This document shows, piece by piece, positions 16,552 through 32,172 of a DNA stretch of 64,000 nt. A program made the translations under genes and the position numbers. Each line of letters begins with the position of its first letter. The stretch's first letter is position 1. Under the pieces are notes generated by a model that saw only the letters and a list, made by a program, of their open reading frames with translations, searched no databases and had not been told where the DNA came from. Location of the stretch: assembly GCA_036004685.1 (NCBI GenBank), contig DASYRE010000007.1, positions 1 through 64,000 on the forward strand. The letters run 5' to 3'. This stretch comes from Candidatus Polarisedimenticolia bacterium. GTDB lineage: Bacteria; Acidobacteriota; Polarisedimenticolia; Gp22-AA2; AA152.

Positions 16552-17019
16552 TCAATCCTCGAAGCGCCGCGCCATCCCGGCGCTCCGCGTGAGCTCCCCG
16601 GCGAACAGCTCCAGCTGCATCGCCGCCGGCGGCGGGTTCGATTTGCCGGGGCGATAGATCCCCTCGCGCCGCGCGTATTCCAGGATTTGGAAGTAATAGG
16701 ACTTGAAGCGGGGGCCGTGGTTGAAGTGCTTCAGGTGCGCCAGCTCGTGGCACACCGTGTTGATCAGGCTCGAATACTTGAGGGCGGCCCCGGTCTTCGC
16801 ATGCGTCAGCCGCACCGCGATCCGCCCGTCGGCATAGCAGACGCCGTAGCGGCGCTTGACCTGGGGCTTTTCCGGGGCGATCTCGCGGTAGGTCAAGCCG
16901 AAGTGGCGCGCGATCCGCTCCGCGTCCTGCCGGACCCGCGACATCAGGCCGGAATGATCGGCTCTTTTCCGAGGGGGAGAAAACAGGGAGGCGGCCGCCC
17001 GCCGCTTCAAACGCCTCAC
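16552..17019 (-). CDS. YgjP/SprT-like zinc metallopeptidase
   Basis: 155 residues with the zinc-binding HExxH motif in TVCHELAHLKHFNHGPRFKS (about residue 90), where the third ligand is probably the His of FNHGPRF. The upstream RRYGVCYADGRIAVRL strand is also typical of YgjP/SprT-like (DUF45, M48-related) proteins. The start is GTG at 17017-17019; this GTG overlaps the TGA stop of the preceding selenoprotein gene (GTGA), a key argument for reading that gene through its internal UGA. The function in bacteria is poorly known. Confidence 0.85.
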   Translation of the reverse strand: MRRLKRRAAASLFSPPRKRADHSGLMSRVRQDAERIARHFGLTYREIAPEKPQVKRRYGVCYADGRIAVRLTHAKTGAALKYSSLINTVCHELAHLKHFNHGPRFKSYYFQILEYARREGIYRPGKSNPPPAAMQLELFAGELTRSAGMARRFED

Positions 17020-17231
17020 GTGCCTCCGTAACCGATGGTGACGCGGCCCGCCTCGACGATCACGGGAACGCGCCGCTGGCCCTTGGAATGGGAGAGCATC
17101 TTCGTCAGCAGCGCCGGATCGCTCTTCACGTCGAAGTACTCGACCGGGCCGCCCTTCTGCGCGTAAGCCTCACGGGCCTCCTGCGTGTAGGGTCAGCCTT
17201 CCTTCCCGAAGATGAGAACCTTCTCGGCCAT
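17016..17231 (-). CDS. UXX-star-type selenoprotein (glutaredoxin-like UxxT), in-frame UGA decoded as Sec
   Basis: From ATG 17231 the frame reads MAEKVLIFGKEG, meets TGA at 17193-17195, and continues without interruption as PYTQEAREAYAQKG, then VEYFDVKSDPALLTKMLSHS, then RRVPVIVEAGRVTIGYGGT to TGA at 17016-17018: 71 residues with Sec13 in a U-P-Y-T motif. This matches the small glutaredoxin-fold selenoproteins (UXX-star families), where Sec replaces the first active-site Cys. The part after the UGA keeps glutaredoxin logic (cis-Pro in RRVPVIV, Gly-Gly near the end). The second stop overlaps the next gene's GTG by GTGA, which only makes sense if the UGA is read through. It lies 14 bp after the cold-shock gene. 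A degraded gene with a chance stop is the alternative, but codon structure beyond the UGA is intact. Confidence 0.88.
17160..17186 (-). promoter_or_regulatory. Candidate bacterial SECIS stem-loop after the UGA
   Basis: On the minus strand, 13 nt after the UGA, AGGCC-CGUGA-GGCUU forms a 5-bp stem with a 5-nt loop (17165-17179); a further CGC/GCG pairing can extend it below an internal loop. The loop lies about 18-22 nt after the UGA, as in E. coli formate dehydrogenase mRNAs. Bacterial SECIS elements are too variable for certainty. Confidence 0.4.
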
Positions 17232-17245
17232 GGAACCTCGCTGGG

Positions 17246-17455
17246 TCAACGGCTGCCGGCCGCGCGCACCTTGCCGGCCCGAGGTCCCTTCGGAGACTGC
17301 TCGATTTCGAAATCGACCTCGACTCCTTCGGACAACGATTCGAAGCTCAAGCCGTCCAGCGAGCTCTGGTGGAAGAACACCTCCTGGCCGTCGTTGCCGC
17401 GAATGAAGCCGAATCCCCGATCCTTCATCAGTCGTTTGATCTTTCCGGTGGGCAT
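17246..17455 (-). CDS. Cold-shock domain protein (first copy)
   Basis: 69 residues forming one cold-shock OB fold, with RNP1 DRGFGFIRG and RNP2 EVFFHQSSL. It would bind single-stranded RNA or DNA as an RNA chaperone. ATG 17455 is chosen since AAGGAG lies 7 nt upstream; a GTG one codon earlier is possible. First gene of the operon that continues into the selenoprotein. A second CspA-like gene is at 39747-39983. Confidence 0.9.
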   Translation of the reverse strand: MPTGKIKRLMKDRGFGFIRGNDGQEVFFHQSSLDGLSFESLSEGVEVDFEIEQSPKGPRAGKVRAAGSR

Positions 17456-17680
17456 CACCGCTCTCCTTCATCCCCTCGGGTGTTTCCTGTCAGTTTTCCG
17501 AAGGATCCCGAGGATGGCCGCCGAATCGATTCTGTCTCCCCACGGAGTGCGGAGTCGTTCAACGTGTGAATTTTTCGGATCATATACGGGGCCGAAAGGG
17601 TTGTCAATGAAGTGGTTGCCCCGAACTCTCCGGAACCGCTGTATGATTCTTCCGGCCGCCTTTGGGCGGGAGGAGAGCCC

Positions 17681-30951: not shown

Positions 30952-32172
30952 TCAGTGGGCGCTGCGCTCCAGGAATCTCTCGGCATCGAGGGCGGCCATA
31001 CATCCCGTCCCCGCGGCGGTGATGGCCTGCCGGTAGACGTGATCCGCGACGTCTCCGGCGGCGAAGACGCCGGGGACGCTGGTGGAGGTCCCGCCGAGGG
31101 TCACGAGATAGCCGTTCGCGTCCATCTCCAGCTGTTCGCGGAAAATGCGGGAGTTGGGAACGTGGCCGATCGCCACGAACACTCCGTCGCACCTCACCTC
31201 GCTGATCGCCCCGGTCTTCAAATTGCGGAGCACGGCGCGCTCGACTTTCCCTCGAGCCGGATCCCAGATCTCCTCGATGACCGAGTCCCAGACGAAGGAG
31301 ATCTTCGGGTTCTTGAAGGCCTTCTCCTGCATGATCTTGGAGGCCCGCAGCTTGTCGCGGCGATGGATGACCGACACCTTGGAGGCGAACTTCGTGAGAA
31401 AAACAGCCTCCTCCATGGCGGAATCTCCTCCGCCCACCACCAGGATTTCCTTCCCCTTGAAGAAGAAGCCGTCGCAGGTAGCGCACGTGGAGACGCCGTG
31501 CCCGATGAGCTTCCTTTCCGACTCCAGCCCGAGCAGGCGGGCGTCGGCGCCGGTCGCCACGATAAGGCTGCGGGTGCGGTAGGTCTCGCCATCGATAGTG
31601 AGGGACAAGGGAGAGGTCTTGAGATCCGCGGCGGTCGCGTCCCCGGTGACGAAACGGGCGCCGAAGCGCTGCGCTTGCGCGCGCATCTGTCCGATGAGCT
31701 CCGGCCCGAGGATGCCGGTGGGGAATCCGGGGAAGTTCTCCACTTCCGTGGTCATCGTGAGCTGCCCTCCCGCGGCCCTCCCCTCCACCACGAGGGGCTG
31801 CAGATTCGCCCGGGCGGTGTAGATGGCGGCCGTGAGGCCGGCCGAGCCCGATCCCAGGATGATCACGCTCTCGATCATCTCCGCCCCCCGGCTCTCGTCG
31901 GCCTCCCGCCGGTCCGAGAGCCCCAGCAGCGGATCCAGCTTGCCGTCTCGGTCCAGCGCCCGCAAGTCGTCATACCCTCCGATTCCCGTTCCGTCGATGA
32001 AGATCTGCGGAGCCGTCTTCCTGCCGCCGGAGCGCTGGCGCATTTCGAGCTCCAGATCGGGGGCTCCGTCCACGGCGATTTCCTCGAACGCCACCCCTTT
32101 GGACAGGAGAAGCGCCTTCGCTTGCCCGCAAAACCCGCAATATTTTCTTGTGTAGATCGTCACTTCCGGCAT
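30952..32172 (-). CDS. Glutaredoxin-thioredoxin reductase fusion protein
   Basis: 406 residues. Residues 1-83 are a glutaredoxin: active site YCGFC (Cys12/Cys15), the cis-Pro loop TAPQIFIDG and GGYDDL. A charged 15-residue linker leads to a complete thioredoxin reductase from about residue 99: FAD motif ILGSGSAGLTAAIYTARA, the redox CATC (Cys230/Cys233), the NADPH motif VVGGGDSAMEEA, and the C-terminal VFAAGDVADHVYRQ. A single uninterrupted frame covers both. The reductase could reduce its own tethered glutaredoxin with NADPH, without glutathione. Its ribosome site is unremarkable. It is divergent from the molybdopterin gene. Confidence 0.92.
   Translation of the reverse strand: MPEVTIYTRKYCGFCGQAKALLLSKGVAFEEIAVDGAPDLELEMRQRSGGRKTAPQIFIDGTGIGGYDDLRALDRDGKLDPLLGLSDRREADESRGAEMIESVIILGSGSAGLTAAIYTARANLQPLVVEGRAAGGQLTMTTEVENFPGFPTGILGPELIGQMRAQAQRFGARFVTGDATAADLKTSPLSLTIDGETYRTRSLIVATGADARLLGLESERKLIGHGVSTCATCDGFFFKGKEILVVGGGDSAMEEAVFLTKFASKVSVIHRRDKLRASKIMQEKAFKNPKISFVWDSVIEEIWDPARGKVERAVLRNLKTGAISEVRCDGVFVAIGHVPNSRIFREQLEMDANGYLVTLGGTSTSVPGVFAAGDVADHVYRQAITAAGTGCMAALDAERFLERSAH

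Follow-up and report, generated by a model that had tools for sequence, protein, structure and literature searches.

The window analyzed here, a stretch of 64,000 nucleotides of DNA from a Candidatus Polarisedimenticolia bacterium, carries on its minus strand (17231-17016) a small glutaredoxin-like frame that reads MAEKVLIFGKEG-TGA-PYT...VPVIV...IGYGGT-TGA. The locus raises the question of which of its UGA codons are decoded as selenocysteine (Sec) and where the gene ends. A preliminary description of this DNA took the first TGA as a Sec codon and the second as the true stop, with operon-level proof, and gave a product of 71 residues. Comparison with homologues favors another gene structure, namely a 74-residue glutaredoxin-fold selenoprotein of UXX-star family 1 with Sec13 and Sec72, and we assign a probability of about 0.9 to the two-Sec gene and the family assignment taken jointly.

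A protein search across 396 genomes of the phylum recovered dozens of homologues with an internal TGA, and further homologues were found in records labelled Deltaproteobacteria, Latescibacterota, and Planctomycetota. A scan of viral contigs yielded weak glutaredoxin matches only. Codon counts are based on 45 distinct homologues, which are related to each other, such that the counts and the p values derived from them overstate independence. The pattern used to define this set required a stop at codon 75, and an earlier, looser listing of homologues agrees with it.

When each TGA is read as U, the translated product is MAEKVLIFGKEGUPYTQEAREAYAQKGGPVEYFDVKSDPALLTKMLSHSKGQRRVPVIVEAGRVTIGYGGTU, followed by GV and a third TGA. 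The 3′ end of the frame is GGT-TGA-GGC-GTT-TGA, which corresponds to a C-terminal U-x-x-stop. The gene would occupy nucleotides 17007-17231 of the minus strand (74 codons plus stop; MAEKVLIFGKEG-U-PYT...IGYGGT-U-GV) with its true stop codon, TGA, at 17007-17009, a position at which 10 of the 45 homologues carry TAG or TAA. The product with TGA translated as Cys matches the Pfam glutaredoxin family (PF00462) at 37.5 bits (cut-off 22.9). The 71-residue product is three residues short, and the gene almost certainly has to be corrected to contain two selenocysteines and to end three codons farther downstream.

Codon 13 and the Sec machinery

UGA13 (17193-17195, minus strand) occupies the glutaredoxin catalytic position within the motif U-P-Y-T. 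Alternation between Sec and Cys at this codon, which the preliminary description had anticipated, is indeed seen among the 45 homologues (41 UGA and 4 Cys), and the glutaredoxin-like frame, including UGA13 and the 58 codons behind it, is conserved in dozens of genomes. The genome examined (3.84 Mb in 62 contigs) carries a tRNA-Sec with anticodon TCA (75 bits) and genes for SelA (564 bits), SelB (327 bits, in a single frame), and SelD (369 bits). Judged from this gene content, the organism is able to make selenocysteine, as had been supposed, and the machinery together with the codon counts indicates that UGA13 very probably encodes Sec. SelA is widespread in the phylum, and its presence is uninformative as a discriminator: it occurs in 33 of 36 genomes with the gene described here and in 29 of 34 without it. 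The SelD frame (L018, genome contig C8:40973-41899) itself contains an in-frame TGA in its GGU motif, which makes SelD a selenoprotein as well.

A candidate SECIS for UGA13 lies at 17165-17179 (minus strand) and consists of a short stem and a C-G-U-G-A loop, with the core GCCCGTGAGG at 17177-17168. The CGUGA loop is located 18 bases behind UGA13, and its G followed by U or G matches the published SECIS model (PMC13188914). Codon usage at this site is strongly constrained. At codon 19, all 41 Sec forms use GCC for Ala, whereas GCC makes up 84 of the 200 Ala codons in the rest of the same genes. At codon 20, 34 of the 41 use CGT for Arg, compared with 15 of 204 Arg codons elsewhere. The usual caution applies that the homologues are related. 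The combination GCC-CGT occurs in none of the four Cys13 forms. The homologue set would provide a natural case of codon choice fixed by an in-frame SECIS, wherein the Cys13 forms serve as the natural control. In the window alone, the hairpin folds no better than shuffled sequences and is weak by itself, and the GCCCGTGAGG core used as a genome-wide marker gave 24 hits, as many as its reversed control.

Codon 72 and the candidate SECIS behind the stop codon

UGA72 (17016-17018, minus strand) is the codon that had been read as the stop. It is TGA in all 45 homologues and never TAA or TAG. The two codons that follow mostly encode Gly-Val, as in the window, and otherwise Ser-Val, Glu-Val, His-Val, or Gly-Ile, and their third bases vary. 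Codon 75, for which a stop was required by the homologue pattern, is TGA in 35 cases, TAG in seven, and TAA in three. The difference between an invariant codon 72 and a variable stop at codon 75 gives a Fisher p value of 0.001, which overstates the independence of these related sequences. All four Cys13 homologues retain UGA72, and the residue at position 72 is Cys in a homologue from Thermus and Sec otherwise. Given that all 45 homologues share this UGA and that two conserved codons separate it from a stop, we conclude that the frame most probably ends three codons past UGA72.

The NCBIfam model NF041114 ("UXX-star selenoprotein family 1") matches residues 5-74 of the product across positions 1-70 of its 70 positions with 118.6 bits (cut-off 72). 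Because this match is full-length and includes the last two residues, it argues for two Sec residues and for membership in UXX-star family 1. Codon 72 most likely specifies a second Sec, with a SECIS located mostly past the stop codon, and the idea that the second TGA is the true stop does not hold.

The candidate SECIS hairpin for UGA72 is located behind the stop codon at 16991-17005 (minus strand; GCGGC-GGGCG-GCCGC). Nearly all homologues have a hairpin at this place. Across the set, the best simple hairpin behind UGA72 has a mean energy of −11.8 kcal/mol versus −3.4 to −5.1 kcal/mol at ten other offsets, and its loop position has a spread of 2.3 bases versus 7-10 at other offsets. The 44 hairpins have a mean z of −2.1 relative to dinucleotide shuffles, and GG or GU is found near the loop start in 42 of 44 sequences. 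The stems vary in sequence between genomes while pairing is kept, and since the hairpins were picked by energy, this pairing is not independent evidence. RNAalifold applied to the sequence-aligned regions returned no consensus structure because the stems vary, and the analysis relied instead on scanning for hairpins, with shuffles and other offsets as controls.

The SECIS model places a loop of 3-9 bases, with a G within the first two positions, at 16-37 bases behind the UGA (PMC13188914). As a set, the homologues conform to this model behind UGA72. In the window, the loop lies at 15 bases, and the hairpin is no better than shuffles; because this single fold is not significant, the claim of a SECIS for UGA72 rests on the homologues. 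A close relative (L030) has no simple hairpin behind UGA72 under the hairpin rule used. The homologue set appears to offer a clear natural example of a bacterial SECIS located mostly behind the stop codon. In a limited literature search, we found no prior description of such multi-genome evidence or of the codon-level constraint behind UGA13, and these are what the present analysis adds.

Neighboring genes and alternative decodings

A cold-shock domain protein (17246-17458, minus strand; PF00313, 67.5 bits) is encoded 14 bases upstream and is regarded here as a neighbor. Downstream lies a 155-amino acid frame for a YgjP/WLM-like metallopeptidase (16552-17019, minus strand; PF01863, 35.6 bits), which has three possible start codons (GTG at 17019, TTG at 17010, or ATG at 16944). 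The GTG does overlap UGA72 as GTGA, as originally noted. These genes and a small membrane protein had been proposed to form a previously unassigned operon. The order cold-shock gene, selenoprotein gene, metallopeptidase gene is indeed kept, but only in the window's family, which has four loci (L029-L032); neither flanking gene was found beside the other homologous loci within the flanks examined, and the small membrane protein was found in the window only and next to the gene in none of the relatives. An operon conserved across the phylum was also considered and rejected, as clustering of the neighboring frames returned family-level neighborhoods only.

The overlap permits an extension of the two-Sec reading that is not exclusive with it. 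Both decodings of UGA72 might be used, such that Sec insertion yields 74 residues and termination yields a 71-residue form with restart at the metallopeptidase GTG, and expression of the downstream gene would be adjusted to the selenium supply. In favor of this, all four family loci keep the GTGA overlap together with an open metallopeptidase frame that has a similar N terminus (VRRLKRRSAA). However, a SECIS in the same bases would preserve them without any start, and each of the four loci also offers an ATG or TTG farther downstream as a start. We regard this extension as improbable. It is equally doubtful that, in the window's family, one stretch has three uses, with UGA72 as a Sec codon, the overlapping GTG as a start, and the following bases as both SECIS and coding sequence. 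If this were true, a failure to insert Sec would terminate translation precisely at the start of the next gene, and metallopeptidase expression would follow the selenium supply.

Far less probable is the arrangement originally proposed, wherein UGA13 is the sole Sec codon and UGA72 is a stop coupled to the metallopeptidase start. Its main attraction is that the GTG overlaps UGA72 and opens the metallopeptidase frame in all four family loci. The overlap proves nothing about the stop, because the same bases form the candidate SECIS and later starts exist. A genuine stop at codon 72 is difficult to reconcile with the lack of TAA or TAG there in 45 homologues, with the two conserved codons and the invariable stop that follow, with the extension of the NF041114 match past UGA72, and with the Cys form known from Thermus. 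Moreover, the SECIS-like hairpin is present behind UGA72 even where no metallopeptidase was found beside the gene. That the UGAs are nonsense mutations in a decayed or misassembled gene has a negligible probability, since nothing but the UGAs themselves speaks for it and both are shared at the same codons by dozens of genomes with conserved amino acids on either side.

Proposed function and known relatives

The comparison establishes that both UGAs are conserved, that the frame runs to the third codon past UGA72, and that nucleotide constraint and a hairpin occur at the places expected for SECIS elements. We propose that tRNA-Sec and SelB decode both UGAs with the help of separate SECIS elements, one located in frame about 18 bases behind UGA13 and the other, past the true stop, about 15 bases behind UGA72. 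The Gly-Gly motif of glutaredoxins borders the glutathione site. Sec72, located just behind this motif, could take the place of glutathione and supply the resolving selenol for Sec13 from within the chain, and the pair would then form an internal diselenide, or a selenenyl sulfide in the Cys13 forms. We consider this redox mechanism plausible, although at slightly less than even odds. The main alternative is that the Sec13/Sec72 pair could bind a metal or metalloid, and a 2026 review suggests metals or unknown substrates as possible ligands of the Sec residues in UXX-star proteins (PMC13188914).

Some relatives have features of their own. On a Thermus thermophilus plasmid (L114:1995-2255), a homologue with Cys at both positions is located between hypE, a gene for a SIS-domain protein, and hypF, a setting that may point to a connection with hydrogenase maturation in this case. 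A more distant homologue (L095, G009:C19) carries CPHC and ends in ...GRG-TGA-TVH-stop, and it is possibly another UXX-star type with a C-terminal Sec only. The window also encodes, at 30952-32172 (minus strand), a 406-amino acid fusion of a glutaredoxin domain (CGFC; PF00462, 65.8 bits) with a thioredoxin-reductase-like flavoprotein (CATC). Elsewhere in the class and phylum, genomes show glutaredoxin matches in frames of 417-450 amino acids, and such fusions may be widespread.

With respect to known systems, the product shares with classical glutaredoxins (PF00462, Grx3, and selenoprotein glutaredoxins with UxxC) the Pfam family, the catalytic motif, the cis-Pro, and the Gly-Gly elements. Unlike these C/U-x-x-C proteins, it has U-P-Y-T and ends just behind Gly-Gly with the second Sec, and the usual C-terminal part is missing. 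It also matches NF041212 (Uxx-star family glutaredoxin-like (seleno)protein) with 90.9 bits (cut-off 66), a wider subfamily that includes Cys forms. The T. thermophilus member of this subfamily differs from the window product in having Cys at both places (...GCPYT...GRGCVV) and in being located among hyp genes. The closest counterpart is NF041114, listed as "Distant Grx-like protein 1" with UxxT and two Sec residues (Table 1 of the 2026 review, PMC13188914) and also covered, with one motif given, in PMC9312934. The window product resembles this family in its full-length match, both Sec positions, the UxxT motif, and the C-terminal U-x-x-stop (45 of 45 homologues), and no feature separates the two, although the cold-shock and metallopeptidase neighbors are particular to the window's family. 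By these sequence criteria, the gene is an additional member of an already cataloged family.
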